Shown: piece by piece, positions 16,816 to 59,390 of the stretch | Layout of the letters: each line of letters starts with the position of its first letter | How positions within the stretch are numbered: position 1 is the stretch's first letter | The notes under the pieces: model-generated | The model's database searches: none | What the model was told of the DNA's origin: nothing | What the model saw: only the letters and a program-made list of their open reading frames with translations | Source of the DNA: Spirochaetota bacterium | GTDB taxonomy: Bacteria; Spirochaetota; Spirochaetia; Treponematales; UBA12059 | Assembly (NCBI GenBank): GCA_022703505.1 | Contig: JAKLDN010000001.1 | Coordinates: forward strand, 1-64,000 | DNA length: 64,000 bases | Direction: 5' to 3' | Program-made: the position numbers and the translations under genes

Positions 16816-16834
16816 CACCGGCCGCGACCCTGTT

Positions 16835-16864: not shown

Positions 16865-16868
16865 GAGG

Positions 16869-34582: not shown

Positions 34583-34596
34583 TAAGGAGGAGCGGC

Positions 34597-35751: not shown

Positions 35752-35871
35752 TTAGTGAATAGGTGAATGGGTAAATAGGGAGGATTGCGGAAACAGCGGG
35801 TATGCGTGCCGAACGCGCTCGTAAACCTGCCATCCGGTCCTATTCACTCATTCACGATTCACCAATTCACC
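35750..35871. repeat. Inverted repeat cassette 5 (TGAATAGGTGAATGG word)
   Basis: The left arm (35750-35779) has TTAGTGAATAGGTGAATGGG-type units starting at the stop codon of the previous gene. The right arm (35838-35871) has CCTATTCACTCATTCACGAT-type units. It lies between the two PLP-enzyme genes and ends directly before the binding site of the second. Confidence 0.78.
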
Positions 35872-42539: not shown

Positions 42540-43733
42540 ATGAACCTGAACGAAATTCGCGCGCGCATCGAGACCCTGAAGAACCGCAAGATCGGCATGT
42601 ACCGCAAGGACTTCCTCCTGACCTGGGAGAAGACCCGGGACGAGATCGACGCCACCTTCGACGTGGCGGACATCCTCCGGGGCCTGCGGGACGCCGGGAT
42701 CAGCCCCCGGGTCTGGGACTCCGGCATCGCGGTGTCCAATTTCCGGGACAACTCCACCCGCACACGCTTCTCCTACTCCTCCGCCTGCGACCTGCTGGGC
42801 CTCTACGTCCAGGACCTGGACGAGGGCAAGAGCCAGATCGCCCACGGGGAGACCGTGCGGGAGACCGCCAACATGATCTCCTTCCTGACCGAGGCCATCG
42901 GCATCCGGGACGACATGTACCTGGGCGAGGGCGACAAGTACCAGCGGGAGGTCGGCAAGGCCCTGGACGACGGAGTGGCCGCGGGAGTCCTGCCGGACCG
43001 GCCCACGGTGGTGAACCTCCAGAGCGACATCGACCACCCCACCCAGTCCATGGCGGACTTCCTCCACCTGGCCCACCACTTCGGGGGCCTTTCCAAGCTC
43101 AAGGGCAAGAAGATCGCCATGACCTGGGCCTACTCCCCCTCCTACGGCAAGCCCCTCTCGGTGCCCCAGGGGATCATCGGCCTGGCCAGCCGCTTCGGCA
43201 TGGACATCACCCTGGCCCACCCCGAGGGCTACGACCTCATCCCCGAGGTGGTGGAGCTGTCCAAGAAGCAGGCCAAGGAATCCGGCGGCTCCTTCAAGCA
43301 CGTCAACTCCATGGACGAGGCCTTCCAGGGGGCGGACATCGTGTACCCCAAGAGCTGGGCCCCCTACGACGTCATGCTGAAGCGCGTCCCCCTCCTGCAC
43401 GCCGGGGACCAGGCGGGCCTCAAGGACCTGGAGAAGGCCTGCCTCGCGAACAACGCGAAGTTCCGGGACTGGGAGTGCACGGAACAGAAGATGAAGCTGA
43501 CCGCCGGGGGCAAGGCCCTGTACATGCACTGCCTGCCCGCGGACATCACGGACGTCTCCTGCAAGGCCGGCGAGGTGGCCGCCACCGTCTTCGACCGGTA
43601 TCGGGACGACACCTACCGGGAGGCCTCCTGGAAGCCCTACATCATCGCCGCCATGATCCTGCTCGGGAAGTTCCAGGACCCCGCCAAGGTCCTGGCGGGC
43701 CTGGTGGAGAGGAACCGGAAAAGAGTCGGTTAA
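42540..43733 (+). CDS. ygeW: YgeW-type knotted carbamoyltransferase
   Basis: A 397-residue transcarbamylase. The carbamoyl-phosphate site is FRDNSTRTRFSY, and HPTQSMADFLHLAHHF and MHCLPADITDVSC are the other two family motifs. The length and the opening NLNEIRARIETLKNRKIGMY match YgeW, the transferase of urate clusters thought to work backwards, phosphorolysing a diureido compound to carbamoyl phosphate. GGGAGG precedes the ATG. It is the last gene of the purine run, before a strong terminator. No carbamate kinase follows. Confidence 0.93.
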   Translation: MNLNEIRARIETLKNRKIGMYRKDFLLTWEKTRDEIDATFDVADILRGLRDAGISPRVWDSGIAVSNFRDNSTRTRFSYSSACDLLGLYVQDLDEGKSQIAHGETVRETANMISFLTEAIGIRDDMYLGEGDKYQREVGKALDDGVAAGVLPDRPTVVNLQSDIDHPTQSMADFLHLAHHFGGLSKLKGKKIAMTWAYSPSYGKPLSVPQGIIGLASRFGMDITLAHPEGYDLIPEVVELSKKQAKESGGSFKHVNSMDEAFQGADIVYPKSWAPYDVMLKRVPLLHAGDQAGLKDLEKACLANNAKFRDWECTEQKMKLTAGGKALYMHCLPADITDVSCKAGEVAATVFDRYRDDTYREASWKPYIIAAMILLGKFQDPAKVLAGLVERNRKRVG

Positions 43734-43750
43734 CGTCAAGCTATACCGGA

Positions 43751-43782
43751 GCGGCGGCCGCGGATTGCGGCCGCCGCTTTTT
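43751..43782 (+). terminator. Intrinsic terminator after ygeW
   Basis: GCGGCGGCCGC (43751-43761) pairs with GCGGCCGCCGC (43767-43777), followed by TTTTT. It closes the purine cluster. Confidence 0.92.
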
Positions 43783-43793
43783 AATTTTCCAGC

Positions 43794-43822
43794 TTGCGCG
43801 CTCCGGCTGCCGGGAGTATGAT
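43794..43822 (+). promoter_or_regulatory. Promoter of the lipoprotein hydrolase gene
   Basis: TTGCGC (43794-43799), 17 bases, TATGAT (43817-43822), 37 bases before the ATG. Confidence 0.65.
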
Positions 43823-43859
43823 TCGAGTATACAAGTATCCATGAAAAAGGTGTGCGGCC

Positions 43860-44765
43860 ATGGCAAAGTGTGCGAATCTCGCATGCGCCGGGCTGCTTGT
43901 CGCCGTTTGCGCACTCGGCTGTGTCTCCGACGAGCGCGAACCACCGACCCCCTGGTCCCGATGGACCGAGATCGACGGTACCCCCGTCCATTACATCGAC
44001 ACCGCGCCCGGTTCTGATCTGCCCGCCCTCCTGATCGTTCCCGGATATCTCGGTTCCGGCGCGACCTTCCGGAATTTTATTTCCCTATTGCAGCCCGGTT
44101 TCCGGATCGTCCTGCCCGAAATGCCCGGCTTCGGCTATTCGCCGCCCCCTCCCGGACCTTGCTCCCTCGATCGCATGACGAAGATCGTCGAAGGCGTCGT
44201 CCTGGAAGCCGGGCTGGAAAACATCTCCCTGATCGGAAGCTCCATGGGATCCCTCATCGCCGTCCGCCTGGCGGTCGACCGCCCCGACCGGATCGACCGG
44301 ATCGTGCTGCTGAGTCCCTTCGGGGCGGGCGGCCAGGCGGATGTGGCCGCGAGGCTCGACAGGCTGAATTTCCTGCTTCCGGCGGCCTCCGTCCTGGCCC
44401 GTAAGCAGATCGTGGCCCGGCAGATCCGGAAGCAAGTCCGGGACCCCGCCGAACTCACCCCCGAGATGATCGACTGCTACGCCAGGCCGTTCCGTACCCG
44501 TGAGGGACGGCGGCTGGTCGTCGAAATAACCCGGGACGTCATCGGCGAGTGCACCTTCGATGATCGCCTGCCTCTTGTCCGTCAACCCGTCCTGGTCATC
44601 GCGGGCACGGAGGATCGCCTCATGGACTCCGCCACGCTAACCATGCTGCAAACGCGCGTACCCCGCTGCTCGATCCTGCGCCTGGAAGGATGCAGGCACC
44701 TCGTGTATCTCGACGCGCCCGCTCAGGTGGCGGAATTGGTTGTCGCGTTTTGCGAAAGGGAATGA
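43860..44765 (+). CDS. Alpha/beta-hydrolase lipoprotein
   Basis: A 301-residue secreted hydrolase with a lipoprotein signal (VCALGC, Cys21). The fold elements are PALLIVPGYLGSGATF (oxyanion region), nucleophile Ser in SLIGSSMGSLIAVRLA, acid in IAGTEDRLMD and His in EGCRHLVYLD, so the triad is complete. Substrate unknown. Codon use is less extreme in GC than in the purine genes. The next gene starts 13 bases later on the same strand, so they probably share a transcript. Confidence 0.82.
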   Translation: MAKCANLACAGLLVAVCALGCVSDEREPPTPWSRWTEIDGTPVHYIDTAPGSDLPALLIVPGYLGSGATFRNFISLLQPGFRIVLPEMPGFGYSPPPPGPCSLDRMTKIVEGVVLEAGLENISLIGSSMGSLIAVRLAVDRPDRIDRIVLLSPFGAGGQADVAARLDRLNFLLPAASVLARKQIVARQIRKQVRDPAELTPEMIDCYARPFRTREGRRLVVEITRDVIGECTFDDRLPLVRQPVLVIAGTEDRLMDSATLTMLQTRVPRCSILRLEGCRHLVYLDAPAQVAELVVAFCERE

Positions 44766-44778
44766 AAAGGAGGATACG

Positions 44779-47700
44779 ATGGAGCGCTATTCCCTGGGAC
44801 TGGACATCGGATCCATCTCCGTCAACACCGTGCTCATCGATGAGGACCGGCGGATCGTCGAGAACCACTACACTCTATGTCAGGGAAGCCCATTCTCCGC
44901 CCTGCTGGGCGTTCTGGAAGGCTTGCTCGAGCGGTTCCCTCCCGGCGCCCTGGTCCGGGTGGCGACGACGGGTACCGGCGGCAAACTGGCGGCGAGGCTG
45001 GTGGGCGGGGCGTTCTTCAACGAGATCGTGGCGCAGTCCTGTTCGGTCGGCGCGCTCCACCCGGAAGCCAGGACCGTGATCGAGATCGGAGGCGAAGATT
45101 CCAAGCTCATCATGATGCGGGAAGGTCGAGCGGAAGACTCTTCCCGGCTTTCGGATTTCGCCATGAACACGGTCTGCGCGGCCGGTACCGGAAGCTTCCT
45201 GGACCAGCAGGCCCGGCGGATCGGGGTATCCATCGAGGAGTTCGGGAACCTCGCCCTGGCCTGCGAGCGCCCCCCGCACATCGCTGGACGCTGCAGCGTG
45301 TTCGCAAAGAGCGACATGATCCACCTGCAGCAGATCGCGACGCCGTTGGAGGACATTGTGGCGGGCCTATGCTTCGCCGTGGCCCGGAACCTCCGGAGCA
45401 ACCTGGCACGGGGCCGGAAACTTCGATCCCCCGTCGTGTTCCAGGGAGGCGTGGCGGCGAACGCCGGGGTGGTCCGCGCCGTCCGGGAGGTCTTCGGGCT
45501 CCGGGACGGCCAATTGGTCATACCCGAGTACCACGCGTCCATGGGAGCGATCGGCGCGGTATTCCGGCTCCTCGACGCGGCGCCGAAGGAGGACGCGCGG
45601 TTCCACGGTCTCGAGGCCTTGAAAGCCCACCTCGATGACGGGAAGACCGAACTTCCGCACTGGCCCCAGCTGGTCCGGTCCCGGGCTTTCGGGACCAAGG
45701 CGACGCATCCGCTGCCGGATACCCGGGAGCCGGTCGAGGTGTTCCTCGGGATCGACGTGGGTTCCCTGAGCACCAACGTGGTCCTCATCGACGGGGATAC
45801 CAACGTAGTCGCCCGGCGCTATCTAGCCACCGCGGGGAAGCCCATCGAGGCCATCCGCACAGGTCTCTCGGAGATCCACGGAGAAGTCGGAGACCGGGTG
45901 GTAGTACGAGGAGTCGGCACGACCGGATCCGGCCGATACCTGACCGGCCACTTCACGGGTGCGGACACCATCAAGAACGAGATAACGGCCCAGGCGACGG
46001 CCGCCATCCACTTCCATCCCGAGGTGGACACGGTCTTCGAGATCGGAGGGCAGGATTCCAAGTTCATCAGCATCGACCACGGCGTCGTCGTGGATTTCGA
46101 GATGAACAAGGTATGCGCCGCCGGTACCGGCAGCTTCCTGGAGGAGCAGGCTGAGAAGCTTGGGGTGAACATCGTGGACGAGTTCGGCGAGAGGGCCCTC
46201 TCCGCGGATCGCCCCTGCCGCCTGGGGGACCGTTGCACCGTCTTCATGGAGAGCGACCTCAACTCCCGACAGCAGAAGGGGGCCGGAAAGGACGACCTGA
46301 TCGGGGGGTTGGCCTTCTCCATCGTCCAGAACTACCTGCAGAAAGTGGTGGGCTCCAAGCGGATCGGCGACCATATCCTCTTCCAGGGGGGCGTCACCAA
46401 TAATCCCGCGGTCGTAGCCGCCTTCGAGGCGGTTACGGGAAAACCGATCACGGTACCTCCACACTTCGACGTCACCGGAGCCATCGGCGCCGCCATGTTG
46501 GCCCGGGACGAGGTCCGTATGACCGGGAGGCCGACGAGGTTCAAGGGCTTCGGGGTCAGCCGCGTCCCGTACGCGATGAGCCGCTTCGCCTGCGCCGGCT
46601 GCGAGAACCGCTGCGACGTGCACAAGGTCGTCATCGAGGGGGAATCGCGGGCCCTGTACTACGGCGACCGGTGCGACAAATACCAGCCTCCGGACCAGCG
46701 CAGGGAGAAGGAACTGCGCCGGGAGGGCATACCCGACCTGTTCAAGCGGAGGGAAGACATACTGCTCGGGAGTTTCCGGGATGAGCCCCGCGATCCTGCA
46801 CGGACCTCGATAGGCATTCCCAGGGCGCTGATGGTGTACTACCAGCAATTTCCATACTGGCGGACCTTCTTCGAGAGCCTGGGATTCCAGGTCGTGCTCT
46901 CCCGTCCCTCGGACCGGCCGCTCGTGACCAAGTCCCTGGGCCTGCTCGCCGCGGAAACATGCTTCCCCGTCGAGGTGATGCACGGGCACGTCCACGACCT
47001 GCTCGAACGCGGCATCGACTACGTTTTCGCTCCCTTCGTGGTGGACAACGAGGCGGCGGCCGGCAGCCAGAGCGTCAACTACAACTGCCCATGGATCCAG
47101 TGCTACCCCTACATGATCCGAAGCTCCTTCGGGGACAGGGAGACCCGCGGAAAATTCCTGGTGCCCACCGTCCACTTCCGGTATTCCCGTAGGAAGCTCG
47201 CGGCGGACCTCTCCCGGTTCATGGAGGAGACCTTCGGCACGCCTCCCCGCGACACGGTCCGGGCGATCGGCGCCGCGGAGGCTGCCCAGCGTTCGTTCCT
47301 GCGCGCGGTCTCGGAGGAAGGCCGCCGGACGCTCGCGGATCTCCCTCCGGACCGGAACGCCTTCGTCGTCCTGGGCCGCCCCTACAACGCGGGGGATCCC
47401 GAGCTCAATCTCGGGCTCGTAAAGAAGCTAATCGACCTGGACGTGATGCCGATACCGCTCGATTTCCTTCCCCTGGAGCAGGAGCTGGGAGGGGTCCACA
47501 GGGACTACGACATGGTCTGCTGGCCGAACGCCCAGAGGATCCTGGCAGGAGCCCGGATCGTCGCCCGGAGCGACCGCCTTCAAGCGGTCTTCATCACGAA
47601 CTTCCGCTGCGGTCCCGACTCCTTCCTCTCCCACTACCTCCGGGAAGAACTGCGCGGCAGGCCCCACCTCCAACTGGAGGTGGACGAGCACAGCGCGGAC

Positions 47701-49023
47701 GCCGGGATGATCACCCGCTGCGAGGCTTTCCTGGACAGCCTGAAGGCGCATCGGTCCGGAGTACCCTCCTCCCTTCGCTCCGGCGCGATCTGGCGCTTCA
47801 CCACTACGCCTTCCGCCGGCCGGACCCTGTATTTCCCCTACATGTGCGACGCGGCTCACCTGCTCGCGGCGGCCGCGCGTTCCTGCGGGATCGACGCGGA
47901 GGTCCTGCCGATGCAGGATGAGACGGCCCTGGACTGGGGACGGCGGTATACCTCCAGCCGCGAATGCTTCCCCATGATCTGCACCACGGGGAGCTTCCTC
48001 AAGAAGCTCGCGGAACCAGGGACGGACCCGCGGCGGACGAGCTTCTTCATGCCCTTCCACGGCGGACCGTGCCGATTCGGCCAGTACCAGAAACTCCAGC
48101 GCATCATCGCCTCCAACCTGGGGTACGGAGACGTGGAGATCGTATCCCCTTCCAACAAGAAATCCTACGCGGACTTCACCTCCGGCCGGGGCGTGAAGTT
48201 CCGCCTGGTAGTGTGGAAGGGCCTGGTGGCGTGCGAGATTCTGGCCCGGCTGCGCCAGGAACGAAAACCCTACGAGGCACGGCCGGGTCAGACCGAGGAG
48301 ACTTACCGACGGGAACTGGACCGCTTGGCCCGGTGCCTGGAGGGAGGGGCGAGGGACATCGTGCGACAGCTGCGCGGGTCCGTCGAGGCGTTCGACGCCA
48401 TTCCCCTGCTGGACATGCCCCGGAAGCCCGTGGTTGCGGTCCTGGGGGAAATCTTCATGCGCGACAATCCCTTCTGCAGCGGCTTCCTGCGGGACCGTTT
48501 GGAGGAACTGGGAGCCGAGACGGTCATGGCGCCGGTGCGCGAATGGCTGGAACTGTCCTCGGTGAATTACCGGAAGGTCAGCCTCTGGGAGGGGCGGTAC
48601 CTCGACGCCGCGAAGGCCCGGGTCCAGCTTTTCTTCCAGGAACGGATCGCCCATGGCATCGAGCGCGCCCTCTCGGACACCTTCGACGCGAACCGGATCG
48701 TACCCATCGAGGACATCCTGGATCTCTGCGGTACGTACATCCACCGCGACTATTCCGGGGAGCCCCCCCTGGCCTTGGGCGCCGCCGCCAGCCTGGCCAG
48801 GACCGGCGTCTCGGGCTTCGCCTCCGTGATCCCCTTCACCTGCCTACCCGGGACCGTCGTGGCCTCCCTCTCGGATTCCTTCCGGACCGATCACGGGGAT
48901 ATCCCCTGGGTGAACATCGCCTTCGACGGGCAGGAAGACATCGGAGCCGAAACCCGGCTGGAGGCCTTCGTGTACCAGGCCCGGGAGTACGCCCGGGCCC
49001 ACGGGTACGACGGGGTCCGATAG
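44779..49023 (+). CDS. Giant BcrAD-type activase fused to DUF2229/HgdB-like domains
   Basis: A 1414-residue cytoplasmic protein with two ASKHA ATPase repeats: LGLDIGSISVNTVLIDE with TVCAAGTGSFLDQQ, and LGIDVGSLSTNVVLIDG with KVCAAGTGSFLEEQ. The second Cys of each is in GRCSVF and DRCTVF. These are the nucleotide and [4Fe-4S] sites of 2-hydroxyacyl-CoA dehydratase activators and benzoyl-CoA reductase ATPases. A Cys-rich linker (CAGCENRCDVHK) leads to a DUF2229 region (ALMVYYQQFPYWRTFFESLG) and HgdB-like iron-sulfur segments (SSRECFPMIC, HGGPCRFGQY). It would be an ATP-driven low-potential electron donor. AAAAGGAGG precedes the ATG. The target is unknown. Confidence 0.85.
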   Translation: MERYSLGLDIGSISVNTVLIDEDRRIVENHYTLCQGSPFSALLGVLEGLLERFPPGALVRVATTGTGGKLAARLVGGAFFNEIVAQSCSVGALHPEARTVIEIGGEDSKLIMMREGRAEDSSRLSDFAMNTVCAAGTGSFLDQQARRIGVSIEEFGNLALACERPPHIAGRCSVFAKSDMIHLQQIATPLEDIVAGLCFAVARNLRSNLARGRKLRSPVVFQGGVAANAGVVRAVREVFGLRDGQLVIPEYHASMGAIGAVFRLLDAAPKEDARFHGLEALKAHLDDGKTELPHWPQLVRSRAFGTKATHPLPDTREPVEVFLGIDVGSLSTNVVLIDGDTNVVARRYLATAGKPIEAIRTGLSEIHGEVGDRVVVRGVGTTGSGRYLTGHFTGADTIKNEITAQATAAIHFHPEVDTVFEIGGQDSKFISIDHGVVVDFEMNKVCAAGTGSFLEEQAEKLGVNIVDEFGERALSADRPCRLGDRCTVFMESDLNSRQQKGAGKDDLIGGLAFSIVQNYLQKVVGSKRIGDHILFQGGVTNNPAVVAAFEAVTGKPITVPPHFDVTGAIGAAMLARDEVRMTGRPTRFKGFGVSRVPYAMSRFACAGCENRCDVHKVVIEGESRALYYGDRCDKYQPPDQRREKELRREGIPDLFKRREDILLGSFRDEPRDPARTSIGIPRALMVYYQQFPYWRTFFESLGFQVVLSRPSDRPLVTKSLGLLAAETCFPVEVMHGHVHDLLERGIDYVFAPFVVDNEAAAGSQSVNYNCPWIQCYPYMIRSSFGDRETRGKFLVPTVHFRYSRRKLAADLSRFMEETFGTPPRDTVRAIGAAEAAQRSFLRAVSEEGRRTLADLPPDRNAFVVLGRPYNAGDPELNLGLVKKLIDLDVMPIPLDFLPLEQELGGVHRDYDMVCWPNAQRILAGARIVARSDRLQAVFITNFRCGPDSFLSHYLREELRGRPHLQLEVDEHSADAGMITRCEAFLDSLKAHRSGVPSSLRSGAIWRFTTTPSAGRTLYFPYMCDAAHLLAAAARSCGIDAEVLPMQDETALDWGRRYTSSRECFPMICTTGSFLKKLAEPGTDPRRTSFFMPFHGGPCRFGQYQKLQRIIASNLGYGDVEIVSPSNKKSYADFTSGRGVKFRLVVWKGLVACEILARLRQERKPYEARPGQTEETYRRELDRLARCLEGGARDIVRQLRGSVEAFDAIPLLDMPRKPVVAVLGEIFMRDNPFCSGFLRDRLEELGAETVMAPVREWLELSSVNYRKVSLWEGRYLDAAKARVQLFFQERIAHGIERALSDTFDANRIVPIEDILDLCGTYIHRDYSGEPPLALGAAASLARTGVSGFASVIPFTCLPGTVVASLSDSFRTDHGDIPWVNIAFDGQEDIGAETRLEAFVYQAREYARAHGYDGVR

Positions 49024-49041
49024 ACGGCCCGCCGCTTTTTC

Positions 49042-49071
49042 TTTCGCCCTGCCCGGGAGCCGTGCTACAAT
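49042..49071 (+). promoter_or_regulatory. Promoter of the AraC-type gene, probably leaderless
   Basis: TTTCGC (49042-49047), 18 bases, TACAAT (49066-49071), 6 bases before the ATG at 49078. No ribosome binding site. Confidence 0.55.
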
Positions 49072-49077
49072 CCGCCG

Positions 49078-51318
49078 ATGGGAAGCGTCCGTCGCCGGTT
49101 TCTGAAGCGCTACTTCGTGGAGATCTGGCTGCTCCTCATCGCCTCGATCGCGGTGACCATCCTCGCCCTCTCCGCGTTCCTCTACAAGAGCTTCGAGTCC
49201 GCTACCGTCGCCACCGTATACCGGTATAACCGCGAATCCCTCCTGGAGACCGGACGGATCAACGAGTACGTCCGGAAGATGATCCGCACCTCCGGGATGG
49301 AACTCTTCTCGGAGCCCTCCATCCGTCGCCTGCTCTACGGCCGGGACCTGACGAATTTCGAGACTCTCAGCGGGGTCCGACGTCTGGACTCCGCGGCGTC
49401 CACGGGACGCTACATCCATTCCATCTACGTCTACAACGCCCCCGCGGGCTACGTATACAGCAGCTCCGATACGGTATCCGACGGCCTCGACCGGTTCGAG
49501 GACGGGAGGCTGGTGGAAATTCTGGAAGCGTCGGGGGATCGCCCGGGGCTGGTCCCCGTGGCCCGGTACATCGAAGGTTCCTCCCGTACCGTGCCGGTCC
49601 ACAGCTTCATCTTCCACTCCACCAGCGCCTTCGCCCCGGACGCCCGGAGCGCCCTGATCATCAACGTGACCCTGGACTGGCTCCGGGAGATCGTCCGCTG
49701 GGGCTCCTCCCGGCTGTACATGCTGGATGCCTCGGGCAAGGTCCTGTACCACGACGAGGCGGACTTGTTCCTGAGCGACCTCTCGGGCGAATCCTTCGTT
49801 CGCCGCGTCCTGGAATCCGGCCAAGAGAGCGGCGCCTTCGTGGACATGGTCTCCGGCGTCCGGAGCCTCGTGCTCCATGCCGCCAGCGGAGACCTCTTCC
49901 TCGTGCGTACCTTCCCCTACGCCGAGGTGATGAGGGACCTGGGCAGCCTTCGAACCACCACGGCCTTTTCCGCCTTCGGCGTCCTGGCCTTCGGTATGCT
50001 GGTGGCCTTCGCCGTTTCTCGGAGACTCTATCGGCCCATCGGAAAGTTGTCCCTCGCAATAGGTTCCGCGCTGACGCCCGGATCGGCTTCGCCCGAACAG
50101 GACGAGGTCGGACGGATCTCCAGCGCCATCGAATCCATGGTGGCCCGGACCCGGACGATCGAGGAATCCTCCCGGGCTCGATCCGAGGCGCTGGCCCAGG
50201 AGGTCCTCAAGGAATTCGTCCAAGGGGAAACCCTTGGATTCCCGGGCGCCGGGGAGTTGTTCCGGGAGTACGGAGTGCCCTTCGATCCGGACGGGGCGTT
50301 TCGGCTGGTCGCCGTGCGCCCGGACCGGACGGATCCCTCCCACGGCTCGACCGTCCCGCGGGGCCTTCCTTCCCGCTCAGGGAACCACGGATCGGCCTGT
50401 GTGCTCTCCGTGGACGGGGTCGAGCTGGCGGTGCTGCAGGGAGAAACGGCTTCCCGCGAAGCCGCCCTGGTCCAGTCCTGGAAGGCGCGGACCTCCGGCG
50501 TGGTCGCAGTCTCGGGCCGCCTGCCTCGGGCAGACGCGATTCCGGCTGCCTTTTCCAGGCTCCGGGACCGGATCCGCATGGGATTCCTGTCCTCCCCGGG
50601 AGAGGTCGTGCGCCTTTCCGATGAAGAGGAACCGGAAACCGGCCTCGAGTATCCCTCCGAGGCGGAACGGCGCATCCTCCAGAGCCTCCGGGCTGGGGAC
50701 AGTTCGGCGGCGGAGGACGCCCTGGAATCCTTCCTGGACGCCCTGTCCGGCAAACGGTTCGATCCCTTCCGCTTCGCCCTGCGCAGGCTGTACGCATCGG
50801 TCCGGGAATTGGAGCGGGAACTCCGATCGGATCCCGGCCCCGCCGGATCGGACCTGGACGGCCTGCCTTCGGAGCCGACATCCCTGGAGGAGATCCTGGA
50901 TCCCTTCCGGAACCTCTTCAACTCCGTCCGGGAAGCCCTCGAGGAACACCGGGCCGCCCGATGCCGGGAGCTGGCCGAGGCCGTCCGTTCGATCCTGCGT
51001 GTGCGCTATACGGATCCCAACCTGACCCTGCGGAGCATCGCGGACGAACTCGGATACTCCTCCTCCCACGTCGCACGAGCCTTCAAGGAGGGGACGGGAT
51101 CCTCGGTGGCGGACGCGATCCTCGAATACAGGCTTGAGGCGGCCAAGCGGCTGCTCCTGGAGGACGGCTGCCCCGCGAAGGACATCGCCGCCCGGGTGGG
51201 CCTGGTGAACGAAAATTACTTCTACACCCTCTTCCGCAAGAAGGTGGGTCTCACCCCGGCCGCGTACCGGCGCGGGGGACTCCAAAATCCGGCTGAAACC
51301 GGGAATGCCGGAATTTAA
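49078..51318 (+). CDS. Membrane-anchored AraC-family regulator
   Basis: A 746-residue transcription factor with an extracytoplasmic sensor. TM1 (about 15-38) and TM2 (about 300-322) enclose a Cache-like domain. A HAMP-like linker and a central domain follow. The last 100 residues form an AraC double helix-turn-helix (LTLRSIADELGYSSSHVARA, DIAARVGLVNENYFYTLFRK). Such regulators, common in Firmicutes and spirochaetes, usually control a neighbouring transporter; here the ABC importer starts 71 bases downstream in the same direction. Confidence 0.88.
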   Translation: MGSVRRRFLKRYFVEIWLLLIASIAVTILALSAFLYKSFESATVATVYRYNRESLLETGRINEYVRKMIRTSGMELFSEPSIRRLLYGRDLTNFETLSGVRRLDSAASTGRYIHSIYVYNAPAGYVYSSSDTVSDGLDRFEDGRLVEILEASGDRPGLVPVARYIEGSSRTVPVHSFIFHSTSAFAPDARSALIINVTLDWLREIVRWGSSRLYMLDASGKVLYHDEADLFLSDLSGESFVRRVLESGQESGAFVDMVSGVRSLVLHAASGDLFLVRTFPYAEVMRDLGSLRTTTAFSAFGVLAFGMLVAFAVSRRLYRPIGKLSLAIGSALTPGSASPEQDEVGRISSAIESMVARTRTIEESSRARSEALAQEVLKEFVQGETLGFPGAGELFREYGVPFDPDGAFRLVAVRPDRTDPSHGSTVPRGLPSRSGNHGSACVLSVDGVELAVLQGETASREAALVQSWKARTSGVVAVSGRLPRADAIPAAFSRLRDRIRMGFLSSPGEVVRLSDEEEPETGLEYPSEAERRILQSLRAGDSSAAEDALESFLDALSGKRFDPFRFALRRLYASVRELERELRSDPGPAGSDLDGLPSEPTSLEEILDPFRNLFNSVREALEEHRAARCRELAEAVRSILRVRYTDPNLTLRSIADELGYSSSHVARAFKEGTGSSVADAILEYRLEAAKRLLLEDGCPAKDIAARVGLVNENYFYTLFRKKVGLTPAAYRRGGLQNPAETGNAGI

Positions 51319-51389
51319 ACTTTCCGGGCGCCCGATTGCGGTCTAGCCTGAACCGGTCGGGTTCCACGGGACCCGGGAAGGAGCACCCC

Positions 51390-52418
51390 ATGCGGAACAT
51401 GAAACGGAAGGCGCTGTTTGCGGCGGCCGCGGTCCTGGCCTTGGCCGGCTGCGGTTCCCGGAGCGCGAAGTCTGAAGGCACCGCCGCGGGCGGAGGGCGG
51501 CAGTCGGTCATGATCTACTCCTCCCTCAAGGAGTCCCAGCTCGCGGCGCTGAAGGAAGGCTTCATGAAGAGGCATCCGAACATCGCCATGGACTTCTACA
51601 CGGCGAGCACCGGCAATGTGATGACGAAGCTCGCGACGGAACAGCAGGCGGGGGGTATCGCGGCGGACTTGATCTGGGTCGGGGACCCGACCAACTACAT
51701 CGACTTCAAGAAACAGGGACTGTTGTACGCCTACGACTCCCCAGCGGCCGCGGACATTCCGGCCAAGTTCAAGGATCCGGATCGCATGTTCATGTCCGCC
51801 CGGCTGATCATGCTGGGCTTCGTGTACAACACCCGGCGGCTCACCTACGAGCAGGCCCCCAAGACCTGGGAGGACCTGCTCAATCCCCGGTTCCGGAACA
51901 ACATCGCTATGACCGATCCGACCTCCTCGGGTACGACCCTCTTCACCGTGGCGGGCCTGGTGCAGAATCCCCGCTACGGCTGGGACTTCCTCCGGAAGCT
52001 CAAGGCCCACGGCATGCTCCTGGAAAGCGGGTCCAGCGCGGTGGTGAACAAGGTCGGGTCCGACGAGTACCTCGTATCCGTGGGGGTGGACTACATCGCC
52101 CGCTCCGCCATGGCGCAGGGAGCCACCCTGGGATTCGTCTACCCGGAGCGCGACATCCCCATCATCGAGAGCCCCATCGCCATCATCCGGAACAGCAAGA
52201 ACCTGGACGCCGCGAAGGCCCTGTACGACTACATCATCTCCGAGGAGGGCCAGCAGGTCCTGCTGGAGGAGTACACCCTGCCCATCAACCCGAAGATGCG
52301 GCTTGACAACGCGATCGAGGTGGCCGAGGCGGAGAAGCGCATGCTTCCGGTGGATCACGTCGCCCTGGTCACGGACAAGAACTCCCTGCTGGAGAAGTTC
52401 GACAGCATCTTCAAGTAA
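51390..52418 (+). CDS. ABC importer substrate-binding lipoprotein (ferric iron/polyamine type)
   Basis: A 342-residue lipoprotein (signal ends LALAGC). Family 1/FutA-like features are VMIYSSLKESQLAALKEGF, IAADLIWVGDPTNYIDFKK, MTDPTSSGTTLF and the PIAIIRNSKNLDAAKALYDY tail. This group binds ferric iron, 2-aminoethylphosphonate or similar anions. I do not see a tyrosine cluster that would settle iron. ATG 51390, with GGGAAGGAG upstream. First gene of the SBP-ATPase-permease-ATPase operon. Confidence 0.85.
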   Translation: MRNMKRKALFAAAAVLALAGCGSRSAKSEGTAAGGGRQSVMIYSSLKESQLAALKEGFMKRHPNIAMDFYTASTGNVMTKLATEQQAGGIAADLIWVGDPTNYIDFKKQGLLYAYDSPAAADIPAKFKDPDRMFMSARLIMLGFVYNTRRLTYEQAPKTWEDLLNPRFRNNIAMTDPTSSGTTLFTVAGLVQNPRYGWDFLRKLKAHGMLLESGSSAVVNKVGSDEYLVSVGVDYIARSAMAQGATLGFVYPERDIPIIESPIAIIRNSKNLDAAKALYDYIISEEGQQVLLEEYTLPINPKMRLDNAIEVAEAEKRMLPVDHVALVTDKNSLLEKFDSIFK

Positions 52419-52431
52419 GCGACCCTTCCGG

Positions 52432-52498
52432 CCCGGCCGCGTCCCGCCCTGCCAAGGACGCGGCCGGGGATCCGAATCCTTTGCGGCCGTGAGGCCGC
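52432..52498 (+). other. Two tandem hairpins between binding protein and ABC ATPase genes
   Basis: CCCGGCCGCGTCC (52432-52444) pairs perfectly with 52456-52468, and GCGGCC (52483-52488) with GGCCGC (52493-52498) around a GTGA loop. They begin 14 bases after the binding-protein stop and have no T-run. They probably stabilise the upstream mRNA so that the binding protein is made in excess. Confidence 0.6.
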
Positions 52499-52515
52499 GT
52501 TCCAAGGAGCGTCCC

Positions 52516-53673
52516 ATGTCCTCAGTTCAAATCGACGCGATCAGCGTGGACTACGGAAAGCACCGCGTCCTGGACAAGCTGTCCCTCGAAGTCCGGGACG
52601 GGGAGAGCCTGGCCGTCGTGGGCCCCTCCGGCTGCGGGAAGACCACCCTGATGCGGGCCCTGTGCGGATTCATCCGGACCGCCGAGGGGCAGATCTCCAT
52701 CGACGGCCGGGCGGTGTCCGACTCCGCATCGCGCCAGTTCACGGCCCCGGAAAAGCGGAACATCGGAGTCGTCTTCCAGGACTACGCGGTGTGGCCCCAC
52801 CTTACGGTGATCGAGAACATCTCCTATCCCCTTAAAAAACGGCGGCTTCCCAAGTCCGAGATCCGGGAGCGAGCCTTGAAGGCCCTGGGCCAGGTCAAGA
52901 TGGCCGGCTACGAGAACCGGCTGCCCGCCCAGCTTTCCGGGGGCCAGCAGCAGCGGGTGGCCCTGGCCCGGGCCCTGGTCACCTCGGACCGGCTCATCGT
53001 CCTGGACGAGCCCATCACCAACCTCGACGCCAAGCTGAGGGAGGAGATGGCTTACGAGATCCGGAGCCTCCAGTCCTCCGCGGGGGTGACGATCCTGTAC
53101 ATCACCCACGACCAGGAGACCGCCATGACCATCGGAGACCGCATGGTGATCATGGATCGCCAAGGCGCCCTCCGTCAGGTGGGAAGCCCGGAGGAGATCT
53201 GGACCTCCCCGGCGGACAAGTACGTCTTTGAATTCCTGGGGGTCTCCAACTTCCTTCCCGTCACCGTCCGGAAGGACCGTCTGATCGTGCGGGACGGAGA
53301 CGGATTCCAGGAGGCCGCGTTGGCGGGGGGGCGGATCGCGGGGCAGGCCCTGGAAGGGCTCGACGACGTACTCCTGGCGGTGCGTCCTATGGACGTCGTC
53401 CTGCACCCCCGCCCCAAATCCGGCCTCTTCTCGGGCCGGGTGGAGCGGGTGACCTACCTGGGCAACCAGTTCGACTACATCGTCGCCCTGGGGGAGCATC
53501 GCCTCCGGGTCCAGCAGGACTCCTTCGACGCCTTTGCCCGGGGCGTCCCCGGGGAGGGGAGCACCTGCGGCCTGGATCTGGGGAATTCGGTATTCTACCG
53601 GGCCGGCGGCTCGGAACGCGTCGACCTGGCCGGCACCCGCGCGGGCGGAACCCGGCAAAGGACGGAAGCATGA
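52516..53673 (+). CDS. ABC transporter ATPase (FbpC/PotA type), first copy
   Basis: A 385-residue import ATPase. Walker A is [15 protein letters not shown], the Q-loop is [12 protein letters not shown], the signature is [16 protein letters not shown], Walker B is [12 protein letters not shown] and the switch His is in ITHDQETAM. The last 120 residues are a TOBE-type regulatory domain. AAGGAG precedes the ATG by 6 bases. Its stop overlaps the permease start. Confidence 0.92.
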
Positions 53674-55394
53674 ACGCATTCGGAACGAAACCCGGAGCCC
53701 TCCCCGGCACGGCCGGACGGCGGGGGCTCGGCCTGGACTTCGGGCTGTACATCCTTTCCACGGCCATCCTCGTGATCACGGTGCTCCTGCCCGTTCTGAT
53801 GATCGCCTACAACACCTTCATCGACGGCGGGCGCCTGGATTGGCGGATGTTCGTCCGGGTCGTCGGGGATCCGGGGAACCTCAAGTCCGTATGGAACACC
53901 GTGGTGATCGCCCTGTGGGTCACCGTACTCGGGACCGTCCTGGGCATCTTCTACGCCTGGCTGATCGGACGGAGCGACATCCCCCTCAAGGGGCTGATGA
54001 AATCCCTCTTCACCATCCCCTACATGTTCCCGCCCTTCTTCGGCGCCATGGCCTGGAGCCTGTTGCTGGCCCCCCGGTCCGGATACATCAACCGGCTCTT
54101 CATGGACCTCACCGGGGGGACGACACCCCTGTTCAACATGCACAGCATAGCCGGGATCGTCTTCGTGGAGACCTGCTATTACTTCCCCTTCGTCTTCCTG
54201 CAAGTGGTCAGCGCCCTGGAGCGCATGGACCCCACCCTGGAGGAATCGGCGCGGATCGCGGGAGCGGGACAGTGGTACGTGATCCGCAGGATCACCCTGC
54301 CCCTGGTCCTTCCGGCCATAGCGGCGGGGGCCATGCTGATCCTCATCTCCTCCCTGTCCCACTTCGGCGTCCCCGCCATCCTGGGTTTCTCCCAGAACAT
54401 CTTCACCCTGCCGACCAAGATCTATCAATTGATCCGCCGCTCCGCAGGGAGCTTCCAGGGGATCCGGGAGGCCGCGGCCCTCTCCATCCTGCTCATCGTC
54501 GTGGTGGTGGCGGCCCTCTACGTCCAGAAAAGGGTCCTGAAGACCGGGCGCTACGACATCATCAAGGGCAAGAGCATGCGGCCCATGCTGATCAAGCTGC
54601 GGGGCGCGCGGCTGCCCATCCTGGCCGTCTGTCTGGCGTCGCTGGGCGTGATCGTGGTCCTGCCCCTGGCGGTGGTGATCCTGGTGGGATTCCTCAAGGC
54701 CTACGGCCTTCCCTTCCGCTTCGAGAACTTCACCATCCGGAATTACCAGTACGTCCTCTTCCGGTCCCGGATGGTGATCGACTCCATCCGCAACAGCCTG
54801 TTCCTCTCGGTCGCCTCCGGGGTCATCACCATGTTCCTGGGGGTGATGGTCGCCTACGTGGTGGTCAAGGTGAAACCCCGGGGCAAGGGACTCCTGGAGA
54901 TCCTGTCCCTCCTGCCTTATTCGATGCCCGGCATCGTGCTGGCCATCGGAGTCATCCTGGTCTGGTCGGGGGCCTTCTACCTCAACCTCTACAACACCAT
55001 CTGGATCATCCTGATCGCCTACATCGCGCGGTACGTTTCCTTCGCCATGAAATCCGCTTCCGCGTCCCTGGAGCAGGTCCACTACTCCCTGGAGGAGGCG
55101 GCCCGGTCCTGCGGGGCAACGCACCTGGAGTCCCTGCGGGACGTGACCCTGCCCCTGATCCGGCCGGGGATGGTGGCCGGTTTCTTCCTGATCTTCCTGC
55201 CGGGGATGCGGGAGCTGACCACCTCGGTCCTCCTGTACGGCCCCTTCACCCGGACCCTGGGGGTGGCCATCTATTCCATGAACGCCGAGGGCAACACAGT
55301 ACAGTCCTCCGCCCTGGCCACCATCGCCATCGGCATCATCCTGGCCGGCAACCTGGCCCTGCGCTGGGTCACCAAAGATCGGAAGGGGGCCTGA
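53670..55394 (+). CDS. ABC permease with two fused membrane domains
   Basis: A 574-residue membrane protein with about 12 helices and two BPD_transp_1 modules, as in FbpB/AfuB. Each carries an EAA loop: ESARIAGAGQWYVIRRITLP (about 192) and EAARSCGATHLESLRDVTLP (about 477). It can form the whole pore as a monomer. Flanked by two different ATPase genes; it overlaps the first by 4 bases and is 1 base from the second. Confidence 0.92.
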   Translation: MNAFGTKPGALPGTAGRRGLGLDFGLYILSTAILVITVLLPVLMIAYNTFIDGGRLDWRMFVRVVGDPGNLKSVWNTVVIALWVTVLGTVLGIFYAWLIGRSDIPLKGLMKSLFTIPYMFPPFFGAMAWSLLLAPRSGYINRLFMDLTGGTTPLFNMHSIAGIVFVETCYYFPFVFLQVVSALERMDPTLEESARIAGAGQWYVIRRITLPLVLPAIAAGAMLILISSLSHFGVPAILGFSQNIFTLPTKIYQLIRRSAGSFQGIREAAALSILLIVVVVAALYVQKRVLKTGRYDIIKGKSMRPMLIKLRGARLPILAVCLASLGVIVVLPLAVVILVGFLKAYGLPFRFENFTIRNYQYVLFRSRMVIDSIRNSLFLSVASGVITMFLGVMVAYVVVKVKPRGKGLLEILSLLPYSMPGIVLAIGVILVWSGAFYLNLYNTIWIILIAYIARYVSFAMKSASASLEQVHYSLEEAARSCGATHLESLRDVTLPLIRPGMVAGFFLIFLPGMRELTTSVLLYGPFTRTLGVAIYSMNAEGNTVQSSALATIAIGIILAGNLALRWVTKDRKGA

Positions 55395-55395
55395 C

Positions 55396-56502
55396 ATGAG
55401 CCGGATTCAGTTGAAGGGGGTCTCCAAGGTCTTCCCGACCCGGAGCGGCGCCTCCGTGGCCGCGGTCAAGGATCTCGACCTCGTCATCGAGGAGGGGGAA
55501 TGCTTCTCCTTTCTGGGCCCCTCGGGCTGCGGGAAGACCACGACCCTCCGGATGATCGCCGGCTTCGAGGACCTCAGCGCCGGGGAGATCTGGCTGGGGG
55601 ACCGCGCCGTCTCCATCAAGGAGCGGAACCTCTACATACCCCCGGAACAGCGGGGTCTGGGCATGGTCTTCCAATCCTTCGCCGTGTGGCCCCACCTGAA
55701 CGTCTTCGAGAACGTGGCCTTCCCCCTCCGGGTCCGGGACCTTCCCCGGACGGACATCGCCGAGGCCGTGGCCCAGGCCCTGCGCCACACGGACCTGGCG
55801 GGGCTGGAGGGGACCTTCCCCGCGGACCTGAGCGGGGGCCAGCAGCAGCGCATCGCCTTGGCCCGGGCCATCGTGACCAAGCCCCGGGTCATGCTCCTGG
55901 ACGAGCCCTTGTCCAACCTGGATCCCAAGCTCCGGGAGTCCATGCGATTCGAGATCAAGGAGCTCCAGCGGAAGCTCAACTTCACCATCGTCTTCGTGAC
56001 CCACGACCAGGCCGAGGCCATGGCCCTTTCGGACCGCATGCTGGTAATGGACCTCGGGAAAGTCCAGCAGGCGGACACGCCGGAGGCCCTGTACAACCGG
56101 CCCGCCAGCCGCTTCGTCTACGGCTTCCTGGGGCTGTCGAACTTCACGGACGTGGAACTGCGGGGCGGGGACCTGTACGTGCCGGGGTCGAAATACCCGC
56201 TCCCGATGGAACTTCCCGCCGGGGCCGCCCGGGAAGGCGTGATGGCCACCCGGCCCAACGAGATCACCCTGAGCCCGAAGGACGAAGGAGGCTGCCCGGC
56301 CGTCGTTGTGAAGCGCCTGTACCTGACCTACTGTATCGAGTACCAGGCGCGGGTCGGCGATCAGACCCTCCGGGTGCATTGCCCCCACTCCATCGTGTTG
56401 GAGGAGGGACGGCCATGCTTCCTGAGGTTTAAGAACCCCCGATGGTATCCCCGGGAATCCGGCCGGGCGGAGATCGAGCGGAACGAGAGACAGGTGATTT
56501 GA
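55396..56502 (+). CDS. ABC transporter ATPase (FbpC/PotA type), second copy
   Basis: A 368-residue ATPase with intact Walker A ([16 protein letters not shown]), signature ([16 protein letters not shown]), Walker B (VMLLDEPLSNLD) and His switch (VTHDQAEAMAL), plus a C-terminal TOBE-like domain. It is clearly a paralogue of, and not identical to, the ATPase 3' of the binding protein. With a two-domain permease, the two ATPases probably form a heterodimer. Confidence 0.92.
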   Translation: MSRIQLKGVSKVFPTRSGASVAAVKDLDLVIEEGECFSFLGPSGCGKTTTLRMIAGFEDLSAGEIWLGDRAVSIKERNLYIPPEQRGLGMVFQSFAVWPHLNVFENVAFPLRVRDLPRTDIAEAVAQALRHTDLAGLEGTFPADLSGGQQQRIALARAIVTKPRVMLLDEPLSNLDPKLRESMRFEIKELQRKLNFTIVFVTHDQAEAMALSDRMLVMDLGKVQQADTPEALYNRPASRFVYGFLGLSNFTDVELRGGDLYVPGSKYPLPMELPAGAAREGVMATRPNEITLSPKDEGGCPAVVVKRLYLTYCIEYQARVGDQTLRVHCPHSIVLEEGRPCFLRFKNPRWYPRESGRAEIERNERQVI

Positions 56503-56516
56503 GTACTTGGGGACGA

Positions 56517-56560: not shown

Positions 56561-57829
56561 CTACATCAGCCCCGGGATGAAGAGGGCCAGGGGCGGATAC
56601 AGGATGATCGCCAGCAGGACCAGAAGGATCCCGAGCAGATACGGGATCGCGCTGCGGGCGGTCTTGAGGATCGAGATCCCGCCGATCTCGCTGGCTATGA
56701 ACAGGCAGGCGCCCACGGGAGGCGTCACCAAGCCGATCGCCAGGGCGATGACGGTGACGATTCCGAACAGGATCGGATCGATGCCCATCATGCGGGTCAC
56801 GGGATATAGAACGGGCACGAGCAGGATCATCGCGGCCCCCAGGTCGATGAACATCCCCGCCACCAGGTACACGACCACGAAGAGGAGAAGCACCACGTTC
56901 TTGTCCTGGGTCAGCATCCCGATCAGGGCGGCCAGCTTCTGTGGAATCTGGTCGTTGGTGATGATCCAGCTGTAGAGGAAGGCCCCGGCGATCATGAACA
57001 TGACGATGGCCGTGGTGATCCCGGACTCGTAGATCAGCTTGGGCAGGTCCCGAGGCTTGAGCTCCCGGTAGACGACCATGCTGACGAACAGGGCGTACAC
57101 GATGGCCAGCACGGCGGCCTCCGTGGGAGTCACGATCCCGAAGATGATTCCCCCCAGGATGATGACCGGCATGAAAAGGGCCAGGATTCCCCGGCGCAGG
57201 CTCCCGAGGAAATCCCGTATGGAGAAACGTTTGGGGCTGCCCATCCCGCGCTTGGCGCAGATGAAGTAGGAGATGACCATCTGCACCAGGCCGATCAGGA
57301 TGCCGGGGACGATGCCTCCCAGGAACAACCTGCCGATGGAGGTCCCGGTGATCACGCCGTAGATGACGAAGGGGATGCTCGGGGGGATGATGACCCCGAT
57401 GACCGAGGATGAGGCCGTGACGGCGGCGGAGAAATCGGCGTCGTAGCCCTCGTCCTTCATGGCGGGGATCAGGACCGACCCGACCGCCGAGGTGTCCGCC
57501 ACCGCCGCGCCGGTGATGCCCGCGAAGAGCATGCTGGTCGCGATGTTGACGTGGGCCAGGCCGCCTCGGATGAAACCCACGGAGGAGTTCGCGAACTTGA
57601 TGATCCGGTTGGAGATGCCGCCCCCGGACATCAGGTTTCCGGCGAGCATGAAGAAGGGGATGGCCAGGAGGATGAAGGAATCCACCGCTGTGACGCCCCG
57701 CTGGATGACGGCCATCAGGGTGATGCCGTTCAGGGCCAGGGCCAGGCTGGCGGATATGAAGAGGCTGAAGGCGATGGGCACGTTCAGCAGGATCAGGACC
57801 GCGAAGGAGAGGAAGAGCGTCGTGGTCAC
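56561..57829 (-). CDS. dctM: TRAP transporter large permease
   Basis: A 422-residue membrane protein of about 12 helices, the ion-coupled transport subunit. Typical DctM text: LLAIPFFMLAGNLMSGGGIS, GSVLIPAMKDEGYD, VIGVIIPPSIPFVIYG, GIVTPTEAAVLAIVYAL and AIGLVTPPVGACLFIASEI. GTG start at 57829 overlaps the dctQ stop by 4 bases. Confidence 0.95.
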   Translation of the reverse strand: MTTTLFLSFAVLILLNVPIAFSLFISASLALALNGITLMAVIQRGVTAVDSFILLAIPFFMLAGNLMSGGGISNRIIKFANSSVGFIRGGLAHVNIATSMLFAGITGAAVADTSAVGSVLIPAMKDEGYDADFSAAVTASSSVIGVIIPPSIPFVIYGVITGTSIGRLFLGGIVPGILIGLVQMVISYFICAKRGMGSPKRFSIRDFLGSLRRGILALFMPVIILGGIIFGIVTPTEAAVLAIVYALFVSMVVYRELKPRDLPKLIYESGITTAIVMFMIAGAFLYSWIITNDQIPQKLAALIGMLTQDKNVVLLLFVVVYLVAGMFIDLGAAMILLVPVLYPVTRMMGIDPILFGIVTVIALAIGLVTPPVGACLFIASEIGGISILKTARSAIPYLLGILLVLLAIILYPPLALFIPGLM

Positions 57830-58308
57830 CGTCGGCCTCCGGTCAAACGGCTGTACAGCCGGAATAGGAGCTCCAGGGCCATGAGCCCCGCGGAAACTGG
57901 AAACGCCAGGTACACGAGCCCCATGGGTATGCCCAAGGCCGCGGAGGTCTGGGGCAGGGTGATGCCGACCAGTTCCGTTCCGAACCGCAGGACAAGGATC
58001 AGGAATCCGAAGATCAGGACGTCCCCGGCGCCCTGGACAATCCCTCTAAACCTATCCGAAAGCAGGAGGACGAAGAAGTCTATCCCCATGTGCCGGGAGA
58101 GCCGGAAGGCGATGACGGCGAAGAGGTAGACGATCCAGACCAGCATGTACCGGGCCAGTTCCTCCGACCAGGTGAAGGGCCGTCCGACCACGTAGCGGCT
58201 GATGACCTGGGCGGCCACCACGAGCACCAGGACGGACAGGGCACTGACCGCCACGGCGTCCACGATCCGGTCTATCGCCTTCTTCAAGCCCAGGATGAAC
58301 GCATCCAT
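57826..58308 (-). CDS. dctQ: TRAP transporter small permease
   Basis: A 160-residue four-helix membrane protein. The DctQ signature is VISRYVVGRPFTWSEELARY, with RLSRHMGIDFFV following. Start at ATG 58308 (MDAFILGLKKAID); the ribosome binding site is weak and distant. It bridges the binding protein and DctM in tripartite importers. Confidence 0.9.
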   Translation of the reverse strand: MDAFILGLKKAIDRIVDAVAVSALSVLVLVVAAQVISRYVVGRPFTWSEELARYMLVWIVYLFAVIAFRLSRHMGIDFFVLLLSDRFRGIVQGAGDVLIFGFLILVLRFGTELVGITLPQTSAALGIPMGLVYLAFPVSAGLMALELLFRLYSRLTGGRR

Positions 58309-58330
58309 GGTATGACTCGCTCCTTTAGCA

Positions 58331-58357
58331 AGGGCCGCCCCTTCGCGGGGCGGCCCT
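58331..58357 (-). other. Perfect 11-bp hairpin between dctP and dctQ
   Basis: AGGGCCGCCCC (58331-58341) and GGGGCGGCCCT (58347-58357) around a 5-base loop, 34 bases after the dctP stop. No T-run on the coding strand. It probably reduces read-through and protects the dctP message. Confidence 0.65.
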
Positions 58358-58391
58358 GAGTCTCGCGACACCCGAGCCGGACGTTGGCCGG

Positions 58392-59369: not shown

Positions 59370-59390
59370 GAACGCCTCCTGAAAGTATTG

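Follow-up and report, generated by a model that had tools for sequence, protein, structure and literature searches.

The fusion gene and its parts

The stretch of DNA analysed here, the window, comprises 64,000 nucleotides of contig JAKLDN010000001.1 from a Spirochaetota bacterium. Next to a urate/purine gene cluster, it harbours a gene coding for a fusion protein of 1414 residues, the subject of this work, in which two ASKHA-type ATPase halves precede a Cys-containing linker and two acceptor halves, the second of them probable. The gene and its parts are the following.

44779..49023, + strand: fusion gene (1414 aa), in the order ASKHA half 1, ASKHA half 2, Cys4 linker, DUF2229/HGD-like half, probable second HGD-like half
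44766..44773, + strand: Shine-Dalgarno-like AAAGGAGG, read from the sequence, 5 nt before the fusion ATG
44788..45588, + strand: ASKHA half 1 (residues 4-270), with Cys133 and Cys172 as the expected cluster ligands and IGGED replacing IGGQD
45733..46524, + strand: ASKHA half 2 (residues 319-582), with Cys446, Cys486 and the canonical IGGQD
46591..46674, + strand: Cys4 linker motif C605-x2-C608-x3-C612-x19-C632, inferred to be a probable extra [4Fe-4S] site
46756..47790, + strand: first acceptor half, DUF2229 (residues 660-1004), with Cys728/770/944
47812..49020, + strand: second acceptor half (residues 1012-1414), with Cys1063/1098/1355, a probable second HGD-like domain

That this long open reading frame (ORF) is real, as proposed in an earlier note on this DNA, is borne out by its ATG start at 44779, the Shine-Dalgarno-like site, the coding-like GC content by codon position (0.65/0.46/0.85) and the Pfam and NCBIfam domains. 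The same frame is also listed from a TTG at 44740.

Distribution of the fusion family

A scan of GTDB contigs yielded 554 encoding stretches. Our locus counts and tree rest on the best 80 of them, found at 52-71% identity mostly in Bacteroidales and Spirochaetes, which we named clade A. Alignments within clade A comprise 74 of these 80 loci and the window; L055, L058, L066, L069, L077 and L081 were excluded as incomplete or containing X. A more distant set comprises 29 of the 31 relatives tried from the family and order of the window bacterium, two having been excluded for lack of an ORF of 1300 aa. All 29 have open frames of at least 1445 codons. Among 296 sampled Spirochaetota genomes, 175 gave a fusion match at E<=1e-100, the genome samples used throughout being draws from larger groups with varying completeness. 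The fusion is therefore the usual state of the family rather than a rarity. The family is recognisable from its domains but is uncharacterised in the literature searched, where one paper mentions DUF2229; its members are presumably those that go under COG1924/COG3580/COG3581 names.

The predicted ATPase halves

Pfam recognized two BcrAD_BadFG stretches (266 bits) in addition to DUF2229 (196 bits), and the NCBIfam activase domain TIGR00241 was matched twice. In phmmer searches, ASKHA half 1 was closest to HadI and half 2 to MbdQ, HgdC and DCCP-R, with E values down to 4.5e-33. A structure model of residues 1-1010 (pLDDT 85.2, pTM 0.79) aligned both halves with the structures of MbdQ, HadI, HgdC and DCCP-R at Z scores of 25-27. 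The glycines of the ATP motifs are retained in 28-29 of the 29 distant relatives. At residues 104-109, the Glu of IGGED is universal in clade A (75/75 rows) and retained by 23 of the 29 distant relatives. With IGGED conserved in half 1 and IGGQD in half 2, the protein has two non-equivalent ATPase halves.

The predicted acceptor halves

The region downstream of the linker was modelled separately (residues 590-1414; pLDDT 86.6, pTM 0.86). A Foldseek search of the PDB with this acceptor model returned four matches at E<=0.001, all of them benzoyl-CoA reductase or DCCP acceptor chains. VIA-align superposed residues ~663-990 on 2-hydroxyisocaproyl-CoA dehydratase (3o3n_B, Z 14.4), BzdNO (8s02_B, Z 13.9; BzdN, judged by its 375 residues) and DCCP (7yyl_D, Z 13.5). 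By hhalign, DUF2229 matched HGD-D with a probability of 96.5% (E 7e-10), placing Cys944 on the HGD-D cysteine near its C-terminus. As modelled, the first acceptor half thus has the HGD fold. Control pairs gave 1.1% (ASKHA1-HGD), 0.4% (ASKHA2-DUF2229), 0.9% (ASKHA1-C-terminal half) and 0.1% (linker-HGD), and the positive pair ASKHA1-ASKHA2 gave 100%.

The C-terminal half had no Pfam match at E<=1e-3, and no PF06050 (HGD-D) match was found anywhere on the fusion at that threshold. A TR-x-x-AF-like tail is aligned to HGD-D in both acceptor halves by hhalign. In the model of residues 590-1414, the order of cysteines and helices is parallel in the two halves: a helix begins immediately after each of Cys728, 770, 944, 1063 and 1355, and five residues after Cys1098.

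Conserved cysteines

Fourteen cysteines, distributed as 2+2, 4, 3 and 3 by domain, are invariant in the alignment of the 75 clade-A proteins. When 17 cysteine positions were tested against the distant relatives, at ~30-35% identity, the same number were kept in 28 of 29: 133 and 172; 446 and 486; 605, 608, 612 and 632; 728, 770 and 944; 1063, 1098 and 1355. The remaining row is devoid of nearly all cysteines. Cysteines 198, 1068 and 1233 are not kept among the distant relatives; within clade A, the C-terminal half has the extra Cys1233 in 74/75 and Cys1068 in 65/75 proteins. The Cys4 linker motif is present in 75/75 clade-A rows and 28/29 distant relatives. To our knowledge, this site has no counterpart in the 2-hydroxyacyl-CoA dehydratase, benzoyl-CoA reductase or DCCP systems.

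According to PMC11574389, activators are dimers that carry their cluster on two cysteines per monomer, and every dehydratase subunit has a single [Fe4S4], with three cysteine ligands in the beta-subunit. BzdNO is described in PMC11971306 with a double cubane on six cysteines and a [4Fe-4S] on three, Cys95/128/380, a spacing near that of Cys1063/1098/1355 in the fusion. From the conserved set, we infer a bridging [4Fe-4S] cluster, another on the Cys4 motif and two more with three cysteine ligands each.

Comparison with known ATP-driven systems

The fusion resembles several characterised systems and differs from each. Like HadBC plus HadI and HgdAB plus HgdC, it combines ASKHA activator halves that contribute two cysteines each, and it shares with these (R)-2-hydroxyacyl-CoA dehydratases the fold of an acceptor half (the first) and three conserved cysteines per acceptor half. 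Unlike these dehydratases, it is a single chain with an extra Cys4 linker and without a PF06050 match. The class I benzoyl-CoA reductases BzdNOPQ and MbdONPQ are alike in combining two unlike ASKHA and two unlike acceptor halves, in a heterotetramer-like arrangement; MbdQ is the top structural match of ASKHA half 2 (Z 26.9), and BzdN matches the first acceptor half. In contrast with them, the fusion has everything in one chain and lacks the six cysteines that BzdN uses for a double cubane. Its scores on the benzoyl-CoA reductase equivalogs are far under the cut-offs, at 167/578 bits for TIGR02259, 129/313 for TIGR02261 and 123/380 for TIGR03192. The DCCP:DCCP-R pair is alike in that an ASKHA protein passes electrons to an HGD-fold acceptor at the expense of ATP, with a Z score of 25.0 for the ASKHA part. 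However, the six-cysteine ligand set of each DCCP acceptor subunit, as described in PMC11971306, is not conserved in the fusion. We therefore rejected a double-cubane acceptor, since across the family each half retains just three cysteines. The fusion is also like other uncharacterised BcrAD_BadFG-BcrAD_BadFG-DUF2229 fusions, long single chains with the same 14 cysteines, among which the window copy belongs to the 52-71%-identity subclade of mainly Spirochaetes and Bacteroidales.

A proposed self-contained electron pump

We consider it reasonably likely that the fusion is a self-contained, ATP-driven pump of low-potential electrons that carries its own acceptor, an archerase plus acceptor in one chain. 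Computation gave the domain order, the conserved cysteines and, for three large domains out of four, the fold, and no partner protein over cut-off is encoded in the genome. The proposal of the earlier note that pump and acceptor may be a single protein is thus well supported, as a deduction from the anatomy of the chain; the cluster types, the pseudo-dimer, the electron path and the donor are likewise deduced.

In the mechanism that we propose, the two ASKHA halves would pair as an intramolecular pseudo-dimer, with one [4Fe-4S] cluster held between Cys133/172 and Cys446/486 and two ATP bound. A donor, probably a ferredoxin, would load this bridging cluster. Hydrolysis of the two ATP would then shift the angle between the ASKHA halves, pushing one electron onward, possibly through the Cys4 cluster, to the [4Fe-4S] clusters of both HGD-like halves (Cys728/770/944 and Cys1063/1098/1355), at one of which a substrate might be reduced or dehydrated.

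Several points weigh against this interpretation. The C-terminal half matched HGD-D weakly by hhalign (38%, E 3e-4; Cys1355 aligned as Cys944), and the match between the DUF2229 half and the C-terminal half was 7.9% (E 0.0044). The profile of the acceptor half had no match among solved structures at E<=1, and VIA-align gave just partial matches of the C-terminal half to common alpha/beta folds, which are uninformative on its fold. On the basis of the two hhalign values and the parallel order of cysteines and helices, we grade this half as probably a second copy of the HGD-like fold. Thus, of the DUF2229/HgdB-like parts announced by the earlier note, the DUF2229 part is upheld by Foldseek, VIA-align and hhalign, and the C-terminal part is probable only. 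In addition, the local pLDDT of the Cys4 linker is low in both models; the models are two overlapping pieces, and the docking of pump and acceptor lies outside either. Finally, the literature search found no biochemistry or activity for any member of the fusion family.

If the proposed function is correct, the fusion would be a tractable model for ATP-driven electron transfer, with 14 conserved cysteines and pump and acceptor in one chain, because the stoichiometry is fixed and there is no partner to reconstitute. The family is widespread in anaerobes, yet unstudied biochemically in the literature searched.

The surroundings of the fusion gene

Three further features define the position of the fusion gene relative to the urate cluster.

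43860..44765, + strand: alpha/beta hydrolase whose N-terminus looks lipobox-like by eye, ending 13 nt upstream of the fusion, with homologues directly upstream of the fusion in loci L002 and L003
43748..43790, + strand: intrinsic-terminator-like site after ygeW (stem 43748-43780), between ygeW and the hydrolase-fusion unit
43783..56516, no strand assigned: 12.7-kb segment with the hydrolase, the fusion, an AraC-type regulator and ABC transporter genes, absent at the same locus in the same-genus genome G001

With the hydrolase gene ending so close to the fusion, the two are probably co-transcribed, so that on its sequence the fusion gene would not stand alone but form one transcription unit with the hydrolase. 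The scanned region contains five intrinsic-terminator-like sites, with 3.2 expected. A sigma-70 promoter scan of 43400-49400 found no site; a weak pair, TTGCGC (3/6 match) and TATGAT at 17 nt, is legible by eye at 43794-43822. Of the separate promoter and terminator previously placed between cluster and fusion, the terminator-like hairpin is thus retained, and the promoter is not confirmed.

The urate cluster does not need the fusion

The main result for the window locus is negative, in that the urate cluster can do without the fusion. G001, a genome of the same genus that is 96% complete, keeps the cluster in two blocks with 89.5 and 92.6% nucleotide identity to the window (19862-43782). Its homology to the window resumes at 56517, and only 6 bp separate the blocks there, a clean junction. 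No fusion match at E<=0.001 was found in G001, whose SsnA scores over cut-off. Similarly, no fusion match at E<=0.001 was found in G011, which has the cluster as judged by ygfK and ssnA. The search also covered 22 members of the family, whose genomes vary in completeness: ssnA is matched at E<=1e-60 in 17 and over cut-off in 14, and none of the 22 harbours a clade-A fusion, the best score being 575 bits vs 3262 for the window. The GC content of the 12.7-kb segment is 65.4%, vs 70.2% for the urate cluster. Most likely, the fusion and the hydrolase were gained in this segment, beside and not inside an existing urate cluster. We favour gain in the window lineage because it is simpler and no clade-A copy is present in the 22 family members, though the preference over loss in G001 rests on parsimony.

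The segment absent from G001 also codes for an AraC-type regulator and an ABC transporter (window 49078-56502), whose binding protein and permease are nearest 2-aminoethylphosphonate systems, below cut-off. The TRAP genes DctM and DctP (window 56562-59622) are likewise without counterpart here in G001, which would be a second insertion or deletion, adjoining the first. Within the urate cluster, a threonine-synthase-like pyridoxal phosphate (PLP) enzyme is encoded at about 34580-35751, in the frame of 33364, between ygeY and another PLP enzyme. We therefore rejected the ORF at 34602-35762 as a cluster gene, as it is in the wrong frame and the real gene is that of the PLP enzyme. Kinship of this ORF with a 386-aa ORF of L002 was also rejected, the equal length being due to chance, with no significant match.

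Co-occurrence was analysed with ygfK as the marker of the cluster. Among the Spirochaetota, a fusion match is found in 44 of 50 genomes with ygfK over cut-off (six have none at E<=1e-100) and in 131 of 246 genomes without it (p 2.6e-6, with strong clade structure), both counts being tallied by hand from match lists. In Bacteroidales (247 genomes, ygfK at E<=1e-230, four of the 14 clade-A carriers, G347, G373, G375 and G380, being added from earlier searches), ygfK is present in 3/14 clade-A carriers vs 61/233 others (p=1), or in 2/13 carriers without the centre G347. Fifty clade-A genomes were taken from the best 80 loci, namely ten Spirochaete loci and mostly loci with longer flanks. Of these, 19 have ygfK over cut-off and 31 do not, and ssnA is matched at E<=1e-60 in 23 and over cut-off in 6. 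Because their ygfK coordinates are identical, G060 from the Spirochaetota sample and G344 from the clade-A set probably represent a single genome.

An association with ygfK, the check proposed by the earlier note, is seen in Spirochaetota, with strong clade structure, and not in Bacteroidales. Among what would refute a link, the note named a wide occurrence of the fusion away from purine clusters; as far as ygfK marks these, such an occurrence is seen in the 131 Spirochaetota genomes and in the 31 clade-A genomes with the fusion and without ygfK over cut-off. A required functional link to the purine cluster is at odds with G001 and the Bacteroidales data. The premise behind it, a low-potential reduction of a purine ring, is weakened by a report of yanthine being converted in vitro by YgfK together with SsnA and NAD(P)H (PMC12507026). 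The G001 cluster, the family members with ssnA and no clade-A fusion, the 31 clade-A genomes without ygfK over cut-off and the Bacteroidales counts led us to reject the fusion as an obligatory part of ygfK clusters; its purine link is at most a local recruitment.

A narrower purine role

A narrower alternative to the general pump is that the fusion gives low-potential electrons to a urate/purine pathway, through an XDH-type or YgfK/UacX-type reductase, and was selected beside such clusters in one Spirochaete subclade. We regard this as unlikely, but keep it as a minority reading because L002, L003, probably L077, and L079 adjoin urate-type or XDH genes.

All six clade-A Spirochaetota genomes have ygfK over cut-off, vs 44 of 290 others (p 1.8e-5), although five of the six belong to one family; the association of any fusion match with ygfK in Spirochaetota points in the same direction. 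L002 and L003, the closest orthologues, are the sister rows of the window in the tree (support 100), and their hydrolases upstream of the fusion are 37 and 39% identical to that of the window; neither genome has ygfK over cut-off. Downstream of the fusion, at 13810-20428 in L002 and 5425-11104 in L003, both harbour convergent ygeY, PreA/DHOD-type and ssnA-like genes. The ygeY gene is over cut-off in L002 (404 bits) and was found by tblastn in L003. The PreA/DHOD-type gene is below cut-off and is UacX-like by the family description in PMC12507026 alone, and the ssnA-like genes (292 bits in L002, 268 in L003) are both below cut-off. XDH genes are also present upstream of the hydrolase in L002, and a threonine-synthase-like PLP gene lies beside the urate-type set of L003, as in the window cluster. 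L077 begins inside the fusion and likely has the same order as L002, with which it shares a sulfatase and the 386-aa gene; in its genome, G379, the same ygeY/PreA/ssnA-like set is found on a separate contig (L165, G379 C741). Lastly, in L079, from a Lentimicrobiaceae member of the Bacteroidales, the fusion is followed on its own strand, after 73 nt, by genes for the small and large XDH subunits (13309-17026), with ygeY/ygeW about 5-7 kb upstream of the fusion. Reduced ferredoxin has been suggested for UacX (PMC12507026).

Beyond the fusion-free urate cluster of G001, the ssnA matches in 17 of 22 relatives devoid of a clade-A fusion and the lack of association in Bacteroidales, other loci also argue against such a role. 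L069, which is 68% identical, has no urate-type or hydrolase match at its locus, though its genome has ygfK. The fetched flanks of 18 more regions from clade A or near it, of 3.6 to 20 kb and some of them short, contain no urate gene hit, and the in vitro activity of YgfK with NAD(P)H is a further counterpoint. A still more specific version appears quite improbable to us. It would make the fusion a four-cluster, 14-cysteine, single-chain ATP-driven reductase with a Cys4 relay site, recruited to N-heterocycle catabolism in the window, L002, L003, L077 and perhaps L079, feeding an XDH-type or UacX-type reductase.

Other genetic neighbourhoods and functions

The neighbourhoods of the fusion in some other loci would fit another role. 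In L035, L041, L045, L057 and their relatives, genes for a ferredoxin, a hybrid cluster protein and a Crp/FNR-type regulator lie upstream. The fusion might accordingly reduce a small nitrogen compound or guard against nitrosative stress, with an FrdX-like ferredoxin as the donor, an idea to which we give as little credit as to the narrow purine role. The ferredoxin gene precedes the fusion in 18 of the 80 loci, at 123-350 nt in 14 and about 2 kb in 4, Hcp (Prismane) is upstream in 5/80, and a Crp/FNR-type regulator lies within 3.3 kb in 14/80. Both hcp and frdX are described as being under HcpR (PMC1274295), and DCCP is stated to reduce acetylene, hydrazine and azide (PMC11971306). Nevertheless, the reading is weakened because a single Bacteroidota clade of 26 rows contains every locus with the ferredoxin, Hcp or Crp/FNR gene, so that the arrangement may have been inherited from one event. 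Elsewhere the upstream neighbour is AhpC/TSA (8 loci) or LepA-like (6 loci), and the six cysteines of the double cubane are not conserved in the fusion. The tree includes six of the eight AhpC/TSA loci, all within a single clade of 9 rows, and the LepA-like loci are scattered in one larger 21-row clade without forming a clade of their own; these placements come from a quick tree with no bootstrap. One member each of the ferredoxin, Hcp, Crp/FNR and AhpC/TSA neighbours was checked with Pfam, and LepA was assigned by eye. For the pump that we favour, the ferredoxin neighbour is the best available hint to the electron donor.

It is rather improbable that the fusion is a maturation or reactivation factor, which would spend ATP on reducing a metal centre of some other enzyme. 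A 'CoA-substrate-specific enzyme activase' is found in a McrC-linked gene set of methanogens (PMC4153887), and the ASKHA halves score on TIGR03286, methanogenesis marker 15, with E 5.6e-58. However, this score is far under the cut-off (197 vs 456 bits), and the fusion chain carries its own HGD-like acceptor. Least plausible is that the fusion activates a 2-hydroxyacyl-CoA dehydratase or benzoyl-CoA reductase encoded separately, an idea prompted by the homology of the activator domains to HadI, HgdC and MbdQ and nearly rejected since no PF06050 match at E<=0.001 was found in the window genome (3.66 Mb, 98.5% complete). The same genome has no other PF01869 protein over cut-off, only one weak stretch (23/31.5 bits).

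Proteins with related annotations, for which the passages naming them do not state whether they are fusions, occur in two published data sets. The 'CoA-substrate-specific enzyme activase' Shel_25420 is listed in STRING tables of selenium genes (PMC5322559), and Ddes_0545, a 2-hydroxyglutaryl-CoA dehydratase D-component, was up 3.97-fold in a Desulfovibrio transcriptome (PMC5701242).

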